This document shows positions 26,434-32,585 of a stretch of DNA of 42,257 bases, piece after piece. The translations under genes and the position numbers were made by a program. Source of the stretch: Longibaculum muris (GTDB taxonomy: Bacteria > Bacillota_I > Bacilli_A > Erysipelotrichales > Coprobacillaceae); the NCBI RefSeq assembly GCF_004343035.1, contig NZ_SMCQ01000028.1:1-42257 (forward strand), written 5' to 3'. Below the pieces are notes generated by a model, which searched no databases, was not told the DNA's origin, and worked only from the letters and a program-made list of their open reading frames with translations. Each line of letters opens with the position of its first letter. Position 1 is the first letter of the stretch.

Positions 26434-26694
26434 ATGCGAGATCAAAATAACGAATATATTTCAGCATTAAAATTAGAAGACTTTAAAATTCTGTTAAAAG
26501 AATTTGATATTGAAATGGATGAAGAAACACAGAGAATGGTTCTCTCTATTATTAAAAACAATCAGTTTGCTTTAGTGCATGACCAATACCAATTTATTAT
26601 AGAGAACTATATAAAAAAATTGACAAGTGAATTCACTTGTCAAAAAGTTGTTGTTTTATTAAACAATTATTTTAAACCGCTATTGAAAGTTTGA
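26434..26694 (+). CDS. Small protein, possibly YqfT/DUF2624-like
   Basis: An 86-residue, helical, soluble protein. The order of segments ([18 protein letters not shown], then MVLSIIKN, then [20 protein letters not shown]) resembles DUF2624 proteins such as YqfT, which follow nfo in Bacillus; this is a weak similarity judged by eye and supported by the location next to nfo. Here the gene is convergent with nfo and overlaps its end by 28 bp. AGGAGG precedes ATG. A perfect 24-bp palindrome inside its coding region (26620-26643) is the terminator of the opposite strand. It ends in TGA. Confidence 0.65.
26613..26643 (-). terminator. Terminator of cshB-nfo, inside an opposite-strand gene
   Basis: Perfect palindrome with 10-bp arms TTGACAAGTG/CACTTGTCAA around AATT (26620-26643), followed on the minus strand by seven T (26619-26613). 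It lies 24 bp after the nfo stop codon and entirely within the coding sequence of the plus-strand gene 26434-26694. Confidence 0.85.
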
Positions 26695-27530
26695 TTTTTA
26701 AACATTTCAATTTCTTCTTTATAAGGTGCCTGTTCACCTATATAAGGTGTTTCTAATATTTTAGGAACATCTTTTAATTTAGGATGATGAACAATATGAT
26801 TTAAGGTTTCAAAGCCAATATGTCCATATCCAATATTTTCATGACGATCTTTATGAGCCCCGCGTTCATTTTTAGAATCATTAACATGGACAACTAACAA
26901 ACGTTGTAACCCAATCTTTTCATCAAATTCATTTAAGATTTCATCAAATTTTGTTAAATCATAACCTGCATCATGAAGATGACATGTATCTAAACATACA
27001 CCCAAAAGTTCATGATGTTCAACGTTATCAATAATATAACGTAATTGATCAAAATCTCGTCCTAATTCACTTCCTTTACCAGCCATTGTTTCTAAAGCAA
27101 TATGTACACTTTGGTCAGGTGTTAAAACTTCATTTAAACCTTTAACGATTTGTTGAAGTCCAACTTCATCACCTGCTTTAACGTGTGATCCTGGATGTAA
27201 GACTAGTCGTGATACACCAATTGCTTCACATCTTTGGATTTCCTGTTTTAAAAAACTCACAGCTAATTCATAAGTTTCAGGTTTAATTGTATTAGCTAAA
27301 TTGATGATATAAGGTGCATGAACAACAACATCATCGATATTGATATGATTTTCTTCCATCAATGCTTTTGCTTCATCAACGCGCAATTGATCAATTGGTT
27401 TACGTGCGGTATTTTGGGGAGCACCTGTATAAAACATGAAAGTTGTAGAGCCATAAGACAAAGCTTCTTTAACTGAGCCAAGCATCATTTCTTTCCCTTT
27501 TAAAGAGACATGACTACCAATCTTTAACAT
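26667..27530 (-). CDS. nfo: Endonuclease IV (apurinic/apyrimidinic endonuclease)
   Basis: Zinc-dependent AP endonuclease acting in base excision repair. The 287-residue TIM-barrel protein begins [14 protein letters not shown] and keeps family motifs [67 protein letters not shown] and the final LETP, which together supply the three-zinc ligands. Its ATG overlaps the TAA stop of the helicase gene (TAATG), so translation is coupled. In Bacillus the nfo gene also follows the cshB helicase; in spores it is known to repair AP sites. Confidence 0.95.
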
Positions 27531-28900
27531 TATTGTGATTCCCTTTCACGTTTTTCTCTTTGAGCTTGTTTTGCTCGTTCTTTCTTTTGACGCTTAATAT
27601 CTTGTCTGATAATTGCTCTTTTTTCTTGTTTTACCATTTTTTCAATAACTCTTTTTCTTTTCTTTTTATAACCAGGTTTAACTTTTGTTGGTTTTCTCAC
27701 AATAGAAGAAATCTTTTGTTCTAATTCAGTTTGATGTTTTTGTCTTGATTTACGTTTTTCACGTTCTTTTGACTCAACAAATTGATTTCCTTTTAATTCC
27801 TTCACTTCAAAATGAATCCCTTTTTTCTCCAATGCTTCAACAATACTTTGATTACTTGTATCATACATACTATAACATTCACCAGTATATTTTCCACGTC
27901 CACAACGTCCACTACGATGAATATAAAAATCTAATTCAGTTGGAAATTCCATATTAATAATATGACTTGCTCCATCAATATCAATCCCTCTAGCAGCAAT
28001 ATCCGTTGCCACAATATATTGATACTCCATATTTTTAATACGTCTCATCATTTGACGTCTTTCTCTTGGTTCAAGGTTCCCATGAATTTCTCCAACTTTA
28101 TAACCATCTTCTCTTAAACGATGAGCAATATCCTCTACTTCATTTCTTTTATTACAGAAAATCAAACAAATATAAGGATCAATAATAGACATAACTTCTT
28201 TTAAAACTTCATAACGTTGACGATGTTTTGTAGGAACTAAATAGTGAGAGATATTACGTGAAGTTGATAAATGTTCATCAATTTCAATAATCTTAGGTGC
28301 TTTCATATATTTTTGTAAGAATGGTCTTAGCATTTGTGGAATAGTTGCTGAAAAGACCATCATTTGAAGATTATCTTTCATCTTTGATAGAACTGCATCA
28401 ATATCTTCTAAATATCCAAATTCTAATGTCATATCTGCTTCATCCACAACAAAAATATCTGCTGTTGTAATACGTAAAGCTTGTTCATCTAAAGATAAAT
28501 CTTTAATTCTTCCTGGTGTCCCGATCACAATATGAGGTTGTGTTGATAATTTGTTAATTGCTTTTTGTTTATCACTTCCCCCAATAATTAAAGATACTTT
28601 TAAATCTGGATTATGTTTAACAAATAATTTTGCATGTTCATAAATTTGTGATGCTAATTCTCTGGTTGGTGCTGTAATTACAGCTTGAACACAATCCTTT
28701 TCAACATCTATCATATCCATAATTGGAATTAAAAAAGCATGTGTTTTCCCTGTTCCAGTTTGCGAAATCCCAATGACATCAATATATTTATAAACCAAAG
28801 GTATTACTGATTTTTGAATGTTTGTAGGACTTTTAAAGTTCAACTCTTGAATTGTTTCTTTCACAAAGGGTTGAAATTGATATTGTTCAAATAATTTCAT
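27530..28900 (-). CDS. cshB: DEAD-box RNA helicase, CshB-like
   Basis: A 456-residue ATP-dependent RNA helicase. Visible motifs: Q motif region (FKSPTNIQ), Walker A SQTGTGKT at 46-53, PTRELA at 78-83, DEAD at 153-156, SAT at 184-186, and in the second domain [14 protein letters not shown] and [11 protein letters not shown] Lys/Arg-rich tail of about 80 residues would bind RNA. Position before nfo and beside a yqfQ-like gene supports CshB, which acts in RNA decay and cold adaptation. The start at 28900 has AAGGAGG seven bases before it; the longer frame has no such site. Confidence 0.88.
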
Positions 28901-28926
28901 AAAAACGCCTCCTTTCAAGCCTTTTG

Positions 28927-28955
28927 ATTATACAATAAATTGTCTAAAAAAGCAA
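28927..28955 (-). promoter_or_regulatory. Promoter of cshB-nfo
   Basis: On the minus strand TTGCTT, 17-bp spacer, TATAAT, giving a leader of about 20 nt that contains the AAGGAGG site. A 7-bp hairpin, AAGCAAA/TTTGCTT (28950-28956 with 28961-28967), overlaps the -35; followed by T residues it could also stop antisense read-through. Confidence 0.6.
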
Positions 28956-29035
28956 AATACTTTGCTTATATTCTTCATTTTTTCTAATGAACACTCTTTT
29001 TGTTTTCACATATATTGAAATAGGAGGTGTTAATC

Positions 29036-29386
29036 ATGTATCCGCAATATCCACAGATTCCTTATGAGTACCCACCATATCAATCCATGCCGATGATGTA
29101 TCCAATGATGCAAAAGCCTTCACTTTTACAATCTATGAAATACTCTTTAAATCAACTATCAATGTCATCAACAATTAGAACAGCACAAAAAACCCTTTAT
29201 ACTGTTAATCAAATTATACCCATTGTTAATCAATTAAGACCTGTTGTACACAATGCAAAAACAGCTTTTCGCGTTGTTAAAGCAGTAAAACAATTTGATT
29301 TTGAAGATGTATCTGAAGAAATTGATCAAAATGTTAATGAAGATAGTCCTGTTTTTCAAAATATGTTTCCAAAAGAAAAAGCCTAA
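29036..29386 (+). CDS. YqfQ/VrrA-like protein
   Basis: A 116-residue protein with a Pro/Tyr/Met-rich N-terminus (about 1-27, coat-like composition) and a helical section TIRTAQKTLYTVNQIIPIVN followed by QLRPVVHNAKTAF that matches the YqfQ family of Bacillus (family recall, not a search). The family's function is unknown; VrrA is known for variable repeats. Location beside cshB and near ispH matches the Bacillus order ispH-yqfQ-cshB-nfo, but here it is divergent from cshB. AGGAGGTG precedes ATG at 29036; the in-frame GTG at 29027 is part of that site. Confidence 0.75.
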   Translation: MYPQYPQIPYEYPPYQSMPMMYPMMQKPSLLQSMKYSLNQLSMSSTIRTAQKTLYTVNQIIPIVNQLRPVVHNAKTAFRVVKAVKQFDFEDVSEEIDQNVNEDSPVFQNMFPKEKA

Positions 29387-29397
29387 TCAGGCTTTTT
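29376..29397. terminator. Bidirectional terminator, yqfQ-like and MutS-like genes
   Basis: Nine-bp stem AAAAAGCCT/AGGCTTTTT with a 4-nt loop, T runs on both strands. It overlaps the stop codons of both convergent genes. Confidence 0.9.
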
Positions 29398-30951
29398 TAG
29401 TGTATCAATAATTCCTTGTGGATAATCATAAACACTTAACAAGGCAATCGCATTACCAACTTGGCAAACCCCATCATGAATCTTATAATCACAACATAGT
29501 TGTCCATCTTTTACATAATCATTAAAACAATATTTTTGAATATCTGCAAAAGCTTTAATAATAGATAAATCATGAGTTGTAATAAAAACTTGTGAAGAAC
29601 TTTCAAAAAGATATTTTAAGATAGCATAAGAAATAGCCACTCTTTCCTTTTCATTTGTTCCTCTTAAGATTTCATCAATAAAGATTAAACAACGATGAGC
29701 TGTTGACATATCAATAATCTTCTTTAAAGTCTTAACTTCTTTGACAAAATAACTTTCACCAGATTCTAAATCATCTTTCATATGAATTGCACTACATACA
29801 TGATAAGGATAATATTGCCATTGACTTGCAAAACAAGTATGCAATGATTTTGCAAGTAAAGTATTAACTCCTATCATTTTAATAAAAGTTGATTTCCCTG
29901 AAGCATTTGATCCTGTAATAATACAAGATTGATCACTTGAAAAACTATTTTTAACTGGATTTTCTAATAATGGATGATAACCATCTTCAAAAGCAATAAT
30001 AGGTGTAGATGATAACTCTGGAATACATGTTTCATATCTTTTTCTTAGCGTCATAACTGAAATTGCCATATCTACACATCCAACATATTCATAAGCTTCC
30101 AAAACATCTTGAGCTAATTCTTCTTTATGTTTAAATAAAATCAAGCATTGAAAAACTGGAATCATGAACATCCCTTTGATAATCTCCATGAAATAAAAAG
30201 CATCAATTTTTTCAAGCTGATGAAACATCTGCGTTATTAACGTATACTTTTTCACTCTTTTCACCATTTTTGCTATTTTATGTTGATCTTCTAAAGCATA
30301 AACATGTGCTTTCATCAATTGATCCAAACATTCCACCAAATAACAATAACTTAAAACTTCACTCATTAAATGCTCTGTCTTATGCTTATAATATGCATAA
30401 GTGGTCATCATTGTTGCAAAATAAAAACCTACAAATAAAAGAATATCAATTCCCACAACAAAGTAAAAACCAAACAATAAAAAGGGAATCAACATTAATG
30501 TAACAATAACAATCCGATCAATAAAAGAAAAAATATCTTCATGTTCAAATAATTTCAAAGATTCACTATATTGACGACTCAATTGATACAAAGCATAAAT
30601 TGATTGAGCAAGAGTTGTTTGATCGTCTAGTCTAGCAATCGTATTTTCTAACAACTCATGATGTGTAGGATTAACAAAAAACTTACCATACATATATTCT
30701 CGTCCTACATCACTATAAGTAAAATCAACTCTAGCAAAAACTTCACGCATCTCTAAATCATCAATCACTTGTTCATCTATATCTTTTTCTTGAATCGCAT
30801 CGCGATATTCACCAGTGATTTCACTCTTTCCATTAGCCAAACGAAAATCAAACATTGAAATCAAACGTCTTTTCGTCAAACTATTCGCAATAATTCTTAT
30901 GATTACCATCATCACAAGCATACAAAGCATAACCAATAACATGACATACAT
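29383..30951 (-). CDS. Membrane-anchored MutS-like ATPase
   Basis: A 522-residue protein with the ATPase domain of MutS but without its mismatch-binding domains. An N-terminal hydrophobic helix (about 2-24) and a hydrophobic pair near 150-185 place it in the membrane. The C-terminal domain has Walker A GSNASGKST at 347-355, the MutS-type ESGESYFVKEV segment, Walker B with Asp426-Glu427 (LIFIDEILRGTNEKER) and the THD switch. Such MutS-family proteins occur in many Firmicutes and are not linked to mismatch repair; their role is unknown. The start at 30951 follows AAGGGGG; the longer frame starts in the promoter. A MerR-type promoter lies directly upstream. Confidence 0.85.
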   Translation of the reverse strand: MYVMLLVMLCMLVMMVIIRIIANSLTKRRLISMFDFRLANGKSEITGEYRDAIQEKDIDEQVIDDLEMREVFARVDFTYSDVGREYMYGKFFVNPTHHELLENTIARLDDQTTLAQSIYALYQLSRQYSESLKLFEHEDIFSFIDRIVIVTLMLIPFLLFGFYFVVGIDILLFVGFYFATMMTTYAYYKHKTEHLMSEVLSYCYLVECLDQLMKAHVYALEDQHKIAKMVKRVKKYTLITQMFHQLEKIDAFYFMEIIKGMFMIPVFQCLILFKHKEELAQDVLEAYEYVGCVDMAISVMTLRKRYETCIPELSSTPIIAFEDGYHPLLENPVKNSFSSDQSCIITGSNASGKSTFIKMIGVNTLLAKSLHTCFASQWQYYPYHVCSAIHMKDDLESGESYFVKEVKTLKKIIDMSTAHRCLIFIDEILRGTNEKERVAISYAILKYLFESSSQVFITTHDLSIIKAFADIQKYCFNDYVKDGQLCCDYKIHDGVCQVGNAIALLSVYDYPQGIIDTLKKPD

Positions 30952-30975
30952 GATAAAGCCCCCTTTTGTAGCTTC

Positions 30976-31006
30976 ACTATACAACCAATCCCTTAGGGAA
31001 TGTCAA
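30976..31006 (-). promoter_or_regulatory. MerR-type promoter (19-bp spacer with dyad) of the MutS-like gene
   Basis: On the minus strand TTGACA (31006-31001), a spacer of 19 bp, then TATAGT (30981-30976). The spacer carries an 11-bp dyad, TCCCT-A-AGGGA (30989-30999). An over-long spacer with a dyad inside is the classic arrangement of promoters activated by MerR-family proteins. The gene immediately upstream encodes a MerR protein, the likely activator. Confidence 0.75.
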
Positions 31007-31585
31007 TTATTTTTTTAATTTTTGATAAATTTGATAAGCAAATACCTTTATACGTGGTGATGCATATATCGAAAACGAAATCAAAACAAGCACAGATGAT
31101 ATCATTTCATAAATATCATCTTGTCCCTGAGATTTTGAAGCAAGCATAACTGCTAAAAACATTAACCAAAAAATCAATTTTTCAAAATCAATTGTAAAAC
31201 GTTGAAAGGTTGTTCTTTCTTTCAGTTTAAAGGCTTGGTCTAAATCCTGAGACAATGAACTCATATCTTCTTGTCTTTCAATACATTCTTGTACAGAATC
31301 AATGAAATCAATAGATGTTTCTATATCATAGATTTGTTTTTGATAATCAGCTTTTTTCTTTTCAAATAATTCATAATGATGTTCAATTAAAATTTCTTTA
31401 ATTTCAGCAATTGTAAAATTCATTTGTCTTAATTGTTTTATTCTTAAAAGCATTTGTTGTTCATGTTTATGATAAACACGATAACCTTTGTTATCTTTTT
31501 GTGGTTGAATTAATCCTTTTTCTTCATAGAGATTAATGGCTTTTTTAGAAATTCTTAATTTTTTAGATAATTCTTGTATATACAT
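31007..31585 (-). CDS. MerR family regulator with C-terminal membrane helices
   Basis: A 192-residue regulator: MerR winged helix at the N-terminus (MYIQELSKKLRISKKAINLY, then GYRVYHKHEQQML), a coiled-coil linker (about 80-125), then two predicted membrane helices (FWLMFLAVMLAS and MISSVLVLISFSIYAS) in place of the usual effector domain. It may sense a membrane state. The start at 31585 has AAAGGAG five bases before it; the open frame runs further only through the intergenic region. Its promoter overlaps that of divergent ispH. The downstream MutS-like gene has a MerR-type promoter. Confidence 0.85.
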   Translation of the reverse strand: MYIQELSKKLRISKKAINLYEEKGLIQPQKDNKGYRVYHKHEQQMLLRIKQLRQMNFTIAEIKEILIEHHYELFEKKKADYQKQIYDIETSIDFIDSVQECIERQEDMSSLSQDLDQAFKLKERTTFQRFTIDFEKLIFWLMFLAVMLASKSQGQDDIYEMISSVLVLISFSIYASPRIKVFAYQIYQKLKK

Positions 31586-31610
31586 AATAACTCCTTTAGT
31601 TGATAATATT

Positions 31611-31639
31611 ATTATATCGAGATTATTTTTGATAAGCAA
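31611..31639 (-). promoter_or_regulatory. Promoter of the MerR gene
   Basis: On the minus strand TTGCTT, 17-bp spacer, TATAAT. It lies back to back with the ispH promoter; the -35 regions overlap, so the two may compete for polymerase. Confidence 0.6.
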
Positions 31640-31646
31640 CAAATTA

Positions 31647-31655
31647 TGGTATAAT
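31647..31655 (+). promoter_or_regulatory. Extended -10 promoter of ispH
   Basis: A perfect extended -10, TGgTATAAT, with a TTTTGA -35 candidate 17 bp upstream. The predicted start falls close to the GAGGTGATC ribosome binding site, so the leader is short. Confidence 0.6.
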
Positions 31656-31673
31656 GCTAGTGAGGTGATCGAA

Positions 31674-32585
31674 ATGGAAGTAAAAGCCATAGTTCCTAGA
31701 GGTTATTGTAAAGGTGTTGTTAGAGCAATTGATATTGCTAAAAAAGCAAGTTGTCAAGATGATGATGTTTATATTTTAGGAATGATTGTGCATAATCAAT
31801 ATATTGTGAATGCTTTAGAAGAATTGGGAATTTATACCATTGATCAAAAAGGAAAAACAAGATTAGAGTTATTAGATGAAATTGATTATGGAACAGTTAT
31901 TATTACAGCTCATGGAGCGAGTGAGCAGGTGTTTAAAAAGGCTCAGGAAAAAGGGTTAAAGGTTATTGATGCTTCGTGTTTAGATGTCATTAAGACTCAT
32001 GATTTAATTAAAGATAAATTAAAAGATGGCTATGAAATATTATATATTGGTAAAGCTGGTCATCCTGAAGCGGAAGGTGCTATTTCTATCAATGAACAAA
32101 AGATCCATTTAATTACAAAAAAAGAAGATCTTGATAACCTAGATCCAACAATTCATTATGTCATAACCAACCAAACAACAATGTCTTTATATGATGTCTA
32201 TGATTTATGTGAATATGCTAAAGAAAAACTTCCTCATGTTGAAATAGCTAAAGAAACATGTACTGCAACCAAAATCAGACAAGAAGCTATTCAAAATATG
32301 GATGAAGATATTGATATTGTTTTTATTGTTGGTGATCCTCATTCTAATAATACCCAAAAGCTTGCATCGATTGCAAAAAAGAATAGAGAAGTTTATATGA
32401 TTGAAAGCATTGATGATTTAGATGTGAAAACCTTGAAAGGAAAAAAGAAGGCAGCTGTTTCTTCAGGTGCTTCAACCCCAACATATTTAACGAATCAAGT
32501 TATTGATTTTTTAAAGCAATTTGATGAAAATAATCCAAATACCTATCAAAAACCAGTTATTGATAAATCAAAAATATTAAGTTAA
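31674..32585 (+). CDS. ispH: 4-hydroxy-3-methylbut-2-enyl diphosphate reductase
   Basis: Last step of the MEP pathway: reduces HMBPP to IPP and DMAPP on a [4Fe-4S] cluster. The 303-residue protein has the three cluster ligands Cys12 (PRGYCKGV), Cys102 (DASCLDV) and Cys196 (KETCTAT), plus ITAHGAS and the SGASTPTYL motif near the C-terminus. GAGGTGATC precedes ATG at 31674. The frame stays open upstream to 31536, but that part overlaps the MerR gene and lacks a ribosome binding site. In Bacillus ispH lies beside yqfQ and cshB, as it nearly does here. Confidence 0.96.
   Translation: MEVKAIVPRGYCKGVVRAIDIAKKASCQDDDVYILGMIVHNQYIVNALEELGIYTIDQKGKTRLELLDEIDYGTVIITAHGASEQVFKKAQEKGLKVIDASCLDVIKTHDLIKDKLKDGYEILYIGKAGHPEAEGAISINEQKIHLITKKEDLDNLDPTIHYVITNQTTMSLYDVYDLCEYAKEKLPHVEIAKETCTATKIRQEAIQNMDEDIDIVFIVGDPHSNNTQKLASIAKKNREVYMIESIDDLDVKTLKGKKKAAVSSGASTPTYLTNQVIDFLKQFDENNPNTYQKPVIDKSKILS

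Follow-up and report, generated by a model that had tools for sequence, protein, structure and literature searches.

A predicted membrane-tethered MerR regulator paired with a membrane-type MutS-fold ATPase through a 19-bp promoter in Longibaculum muris and a second clade

Longibaculum muris contig NZ_SMCQ01000028.1 (42,257 nt; GCF_004343035.1) encodes a MerR-type regulator carrying two hydrophobic helices and, directly downstream, a MutS-fold ATPase with hydrophobic helices of its own. From its sequence and that of its relatives, we consider it likely that the two genes form a module, in which a membrane-tethered MerR protein switches on a membrane-anchored MutS-fold ATPase via a promoter with a 19-bp spacer. 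Because pairing and promoter geometry are conserved, and because the same wiring occurs in a second, distant clade, the sequence comparison points to a real and unstudied membrane system. The MerR-type promoter predicted to pair the two genes is well supported. The whole 42,257-nt stretch is called the window below, all coordinates are positions in it, and the 3.17-Mb genome that carries it is G000. Genes were named by Pfam in the window and by reading at other loci. The features concerned are as follows.

31007..31585, minus strand: MerR regulator gene, 192 amino acids, with helix-turn-helix (HTH), coiled-coil region, two hydrophobic helices and basic tail (open reading frame, Pfam, hydropathy, model)
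31388..31582, minus strand: MerR HTH, residues 2-66 (Pfam MerR_1; nearest solved sequences CueR)
31136..31192, minus strand: first hydrophobic helix of MerR, residues 132-150 (hydropathy in six relatives; model helix 133-152 with low predicted local distance difference test score, pLDDT)
31058..31114, minus strand: second hydrophobic helix of MerR, residues 158-176 (hydropathy in six relatives; model helix 156-174, low pLDDT)
31001..31006, minus strand: -35 element TTGACA (TTG invariant in 8/8 aligned loci)
30982..31000, minus strand: 19-bp spacer (sequence)
30989..30999, minus strand: operator dyad TCCCT-A-AGGGA, centred on spacer position 7 (CCC and GG invariant in 8/8 aligned loci)
30976..30981, minus strand: -10 element TATAGT, 19 bp past the -35 element and ending 24 nt before the ATG (sequence)
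29383..30951, minus strand: membrane-type MutS-fold ATPase gene (mutS), 522 amino acids (Pfam, model, structural alignment)
30889..30945, minus strand: hydrophobic helix at the ATPase N terminus, residues 3-21 (hydropathy 3.03; model helix 2-33)
30391..30513, minus strand: hydrophobic stretch inside the ATPase, residues 147-187, either a hairpin or one long helix (hydropathy maxima at 147 and 166; one helix, 143-214, in the model)
29401..29925, minus strand: MutS domain V ATPase, residues 343-517 (Pfam MutS_V)

Both genes lie on the minus strand, separated by 55 bp, and TTGACA-ttccctaagggattggttg-TATAGT stands directly behind the merR stop codon, its 19-bp spacer holding a perfect 5+1+5 dyad. 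A sequence-only reading of the window had described these hexamers, their spacing and the dyad, and its description was exact to the base. The ATPase gene starts at the ATG at 30951, behind AAAAGGGGGC; a longer TTG start at 30984 was rejected, as it would begin within the -10 region. MerR activators bend the spacer and thereby restore an overlong promoter (available parts of PMC7722741 and PMC9909328), and all 28 of the 28 MerR-activator promoters surveyed in the accessible portion of PMC7722741 have spacers of 19-20 bp. The dyad core CCCTAAGGG occurs once in the window, against 0.01 expected from shuffles. At zero mismatches, the pattern TTGN5CCCYWAGGGN8TANNNT has a single site in G000, at this locus. 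Seven sites with two mismatches, one of which precedes another MerR gene, bring the total to 8, against 6 for the reversed pattern used as a control. A regulon beyond mutS was therefore rejected: no other exact operator exists in the genome, and the two-mismatch sites are close to the control count. In a count over 315 genomes of the order, 8 sites fit the pattern exactly, of which 7 belong to this locus, while the reversed control has 2; a match in G021, inside a methyltransferase-like frame beside an MraZ-like frame, was taken as chance.

Upstream of merR itself, inspection indicates a conventional promoter, TTGCTT-N17-TATAAT. No copy of the mutS operator was found before merR, where a weak 19-bp match falls within ispH, and autoregulation of merR through that operator was rejected for lack of such a copy. 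Since no terminator-like site was found in 28900-31800, mutS may also receive basal read-through from merR. Other MerR genes of this genome have candidates of similar geometry: one (L182, G000:C11:83450-83480) has TTGACT-N19-TAAGAT with CCCTTGGG just upstream, and several more have 19-bp candidates too.

A close homologue of the ATPase gene (E at most 1.5e-52) is present in 12 of the 43 family genomes surveyed, and MerR lies directly upstream of it in nine of these. The next matches, from 1.1e-37, represent an ATPase paralogue of about 590 amino acids. Three genomic settings are represented: in seven genomes the pair stands between ispH and a yqfQ-like gene, in G036 it occupies the pheT site, and G006 has it elsewhere. 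Conserved adjacency had been named beforehand as a test of the proposed pairing, as had conservation of the dyad and spacer, and both were borne out: the 19-bp spacer with its dyad is found at eight of the nine MerR-bearing loci, the dyad reading CCC(C/T)(A/T)AGGG in seven of them and CCCCTTAGG in G006. All eight rows of the promoter alignment agree at TTG, CCC, GG, TA, T and one additional T. G016, where MerR was not seen, has a promoter candidate of 16 to 17 bp instead. When MerR candidates were scored (at most 10 per genome), all seven matches with E<1e-50 adjoined the ATPase gene. In the window, the order at 26667-32585 is an nfo-like gene, a DEAD helicase gene, a yqfQ-like gene, mutS, merR and ispH, which we take to be the Bacillus subtilis yqf gene order with the mutS-merR pair inserted.

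These results bear on one alternative, namely that the promoter-like site arose by chance and that the two genes are adjacent only by descent. Shuffled sequence does yield as many promoter-like sites with ordinary spacing as the real one (20 found, shuffle mean 19.5), and the genomes are related, so that the loci are not independent. Against this stand the order-wide pattern count, the position of the invariant columns mainly within the promoter and operator elements, and the second clade, and we regard such a coincidence as extremely improbable.

The second clade came from the wider ATPase family, which comprises at least 559 relatives, of which the best 80 loci (L089-L168) were analysed. A MerR profile found MerR near the ATPase gene in two of these 80: Beduini massiliensis, which is the G006 locus (L131) and not an additional case, and Butyrivibrio sp. 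INlla16, where MerR follows the ATPase gene. Among the 78 of these loci scanned upstream, promoters with a 19-bp spacer and a score of 9/12 or more, a rule fixed after L090 had been looked at, occurred at exactly the two MerR-bearing loci; promoters with 17-bp spacers occurred at ten. Of 79 genomes of the genus Butyrivibrio, 15 held MerR relatives (E at most 1e-15; 21 matches in total). Each of the six best (E<1e-40) immediately follows a membrane-type MutS gene, and no such gene was found within the fetched locus of the other 15 matches. In all six genomes TTGACT-N19-TA...T precedes the ATPase gene, scoring 9 or 10 of 12, with spacers sharing CAC(T/C)TGGT, so that promoter, ATPase gene and a gene for a MerR protein bearing hydrophobic helices follow one another.

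The two clades differ in gene order, in operator and in hydrophobic domain: the HTH parts of the MerR proteins align, while their C-terminal halves do not (probability 0.7%). In a tree of 63 ATPase rows (G001, G033 and G386 left out; G329 represented by its longer piece only), the 12 MerR-linked rows need five changes, at least four of them forced by well-supported branches. Together with the unlike C-terminal halves, this indicates that the wiring arose more than once, or that it dates far back and has since been rebuilt and lost. Damaged genes accompany the system in places: the ATPase gene is split in G033 and in two of the six second-clade genomes, G329 and G386, and has a stop right after its first start in G001, through decay or assembly error, and broken MerR or ATPase genes were seen at L231, L232-L238, L267 and L268.

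The second clade is also informative as to whether MerR mainly controls some other target, with mutS a passive neighbour. MerR proteins of similar build adjoin ATP-binding cassette (ABC) transporter genes in G213, G215 and G217, so that the type is not tied to MutS, and the gene divergent from merR at the present locus is ispH. Yet the operator lies directly before mutS and has no other exact copy in the genome, the pair is kept in three settings, and in the second clade the operator again precedes mutS though merR lies behind it. We therefore consider control of a different main target very unlikely. In G213 and G215 (L190, L192), the MerR gene is preceded by its own promoter, TTGACC-tgtcccctggggactgtgt-TATGCT, with 19 bp and a GTCCCC-T-GGGGAC-like dyad, and 0.4 kb downstream lie an ABC transporter ATPase, identified from its motifs, and another frame that encodes a single hydrophobic helix; the G217 MerR gene comes after an ABC ATPase frame and a permease-like one. 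These ABC transporter neighbours are the main pointer to possible envelope duties.

The N-terminal MerR HTH of the regulator matched Pfam MerR_1 at 55.7 bits (cut-off 21.6), its nearest solved sequences are CueR, and it was modelled with a pLDDT of about 90 at residues 1-40 and 77-88 up to residue 80. Behind it, the segments around residues 132-150 and 158-176 have mean hydropathies of 1.73 and 1.88 over six relatives, and peak at 1.72 and 1.60 in the window protein itself. The loop between them carries a charge of 0 to -2 and the tail one of +2 to +5 in the six relatives, as expected from sequence for a membrane hairpin with both ends inside. The architecture claimed in the sequence-only reading, an HTH followed by two hydrophobic segments, is thereby corroborated, and the segments are consistent with membrane helices. 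Taking hydropathy, charge pattern and the low-confidence model together, we consider membrane insertion likely. Alternatively, the protein could be soluble, with C-terminal helices that make up a hydrophobic pocket for ligands, or a dimer contact, and in this way sense lipophilic compounds, while control of the mutS promoter would be unchanged. The modest peaks of the window protein and the poor model in that part would suit such a protein, and soluble drug-binding MerR proteins such as BmrR are known (PMC7722741, as far as available). Both peaks nevertheless hold over the six relatives, whose charges are also distributed as in a membrane hairpin, and five of the six second-clade proteins have peaks of 2.0 to 3.2 (those of G386 being 2.7 and 1.6), which makes a soluble sensor improbable.

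This locus is not alone in having a MerR protein with hydrophobic helices; such proteins are common in these bacteria. A hydrophobic peak is present in four of the genome's 14 MerR genes, and MerR with at least one such peak was found at 22 of 25 loci, a biased set fetched with the present MerR. Proteins with hydrophobic helices behind the HTH were seen at L003, L005-L009, L012-L019 and L021-L029 in the family and at L249-L263 in the Butyrivibrio group. Their forms include proteins of about 340-370 amino acids with two helices and a C-terminal domain, and proteins of about 300 amino acids with five or six peaks; those of Butyrivibrio have about 220-460 amino acids, several being preceded by TTGACTgtaaaccttctttacagctTA.

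In the partner protein, MutS_V (84.3 bits; cut-off 30.2) is the sole match above a Pfam cut-off, and neither MutS_I nor any other MutS domain was listed by Pfam at E up to 1. The MutS nucleotide-binding motifs are kept. The model (mean pLDDT 88.9, predicted template modelling score 0.87) aligned over residues 41-522 with MutS 1nne_B in VIA-align (Z 28.0, 405 residues, root mean square deviation 5.1), in agreement with the earlier claim of a MutS fold devoid of a mismatch-recognition domain. A profile alignment to MutS covers residues 264-520 only, and the hydrophobic stretch was not placed on the MutS clamp. Hydropathy peaks begin at residues 3, 147, 166 and 254; the last (254-272, 1.76) is probably a core helix, and across 38 aligned relatives only 157-175 exceeds 1.2. 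Scores for established families fall below their cut-offs: 62.9 bits against 641.7 (TIGR01070) and 84.9 against 480 (NF003810) for MutS1, 80.9 against 400 for MutS2, and 104.3 against 300 for KamC, the best NCBIfam match. The same genome encodes a true MutS2 (C4:22510-24807, 807 bits, above the cut-off) and an 837-amino-acid MutS frame at C32, assigned to MutS1 by size. Mismatch repair was therefore rejected as the role of the ATPase, given that no domain I is listed and that the MutS2 and the MutS1-sized frame are encoded elsewhere, and on sequence grounds appears unlikely. The paralogue of about 590 amino acids is a second membrane-type MutS in this genome (L185, G000:C4:31919-33499), and many genomes of the order encode this type; in G042 a MerR gene, its frame incomplete at the locus end, is divergent from the gene for this paralogue.

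The MutS fold also leaves room for an ATPase acting on nucleic acid at the membrane, in DNA uptake, salvage, repair or defence, with MerR sensing that condition and not membrane stress. In Lachnospiraceae, among the best 80 loci, ATPase genes are often near those for purine nucleoside phosphorylase (17/80), amidohydrolase (18/80), RNase HI (15/80) and cytidine deaminase (12/80), that is, nucleoside-salvage and RNase HI genes. These neighbours may, however, reflect shared ancestry only, and they are absent at the present locus; the protein has no listed mismatch domain, and anti-phage defence was rejected because PADLOC yielded only short partial matches. We regard a nucleic acid substrate as doubtful, if worth keeping in view.

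Several findings weigh against a membrane-tethered MerR controlling the ATPase gene through the 19-bp promoter. The hydrophobic part of MerR was modelled at a pLDDT below 50. Only six of the nine MerR genes are intact (G000, G002, G003, G006, G032 and G033), those of G001, G004 and G036 being frameshifted or degraded, and in G036 the broken frame overlaps mutS, with no such promoter. The ATPase gene stands alone at the pheT site of G035 and G041, and no MerR gene was found in the 488 bases available upstream of it in G016. Ranked only on consensus score, the 19-bp site comes first or joint first at four of eight loci (G000, G032, G033 and G006) and fourth in G003; it misses the top four in G001, G002 and G004, where the -35 element is weak (TTGCTT or TTGCCT) and the sites were recognised by alignment and pattern. 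The dyad, centred on spacer position 7, is shifted by one base relative to the BmrR centre; its centre is position 8 in G006 and, by inspection, about 8 in the second clade. Finally, 20-bp promoters occur at two of the 78 scanned loci that lack an adjacent MerR gene.

On the reading that we prefer, a membrane-tethered MerR dimer would be bound in the merR-mutS gap, at the 19-bp spacer. When a cue reaches its hydrophobic helices, MerR would bend and untwist the spacer, the distorted overlong promoter would become usable by RNA polymerase, and more membrane-anchored ATPase would be made. Activation of the ATPase gene would thus be local, on a membrane-borne cue, and the product would be a membrane-bound remodelling ATPase and not a repair protein. 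We infer DNA binding, activation, membrane insertion, the nature of the signal and the substrate of the ATPase; the membrane-stress role proposed in the sequence-only reading is a guess. More broadly, we see roughly even chances that membrane-tethered MerR proteins are common, apparently undescribed one-component membrane sensors in Bacillota, wired at least twice (with helices not detectably related, dissimilar operators and reversed gene order) by a 19-bp promoter to a membrane MutS ATPase, which would then act as the effector in a response of the envelope or membrane and not as a DNA-repair protein. If so, MerR-type promoter distortion could be driven from within the membrane. The MerR signal would tell when the ATPase is needed and so give a functional handle on a large family, and the two distant clades would make the idea testable in two hosts.

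We know of no report linking a MerR switch with a bare membrane hairpin to a MutS ATPase lacking the mismatch-reading part. Our literature search found no description of a MerR protein with hydrophobic or membrane helices, and for membrane or MutS-like ATPases its sole match was archaeal, neither of which establishes absence from print. In the parts available of PMC8112672, PMC10269533, PMC11237719, PMC9164220, PMC9909328 and PMC7722741, neither protein is described.

Among known systems, the MerR activators CueR, BmrR and Mta, with promoters of 19-20 bp, share with the present pair the family HTH and a dyad inside a 19-bp spacer, and the dyad centre of BmrR, at -24 (PMC7722741, accessible portion), is within one base of that found here. 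The present MerR differs in having two hydrophobic helices in place of any known effector domain, and in that its putative target is a MutS-type ATPase gene and not an efflux or detoxification gene. With transmembrane one-component regulators such as CadC and ToxR it would have in common a DNA-binding domain and membrane helices, here predicted ones, in one chain; unlike them, it combines a MerR-type HTH and promoter with the lack of an outside sensor domain, and no MerR case is among the transmembrane transcription regulators named in the available part of the review PMC10269533. The ATPase resembles MutS1 and MutS2 in core fold and domain V, and differs in its added hydrophobic helices, in having no mismatch domain listed and in scores far below their cut-offs. 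KamC reactivase, its best NCBIfam match, is a MutS-type ATPase named for protein reactivation and not repair; here the KamC cut-off is missed, and no aminomutase gene was seen beside the ATPase gene, none having been searched for. Intramembrane-sensing histidine kinases possess a short two-helix membrane sensor with no outside domain, and their likeness to the present MerR is one of layout only, as neither a kinase nor a response regulator is involved here.

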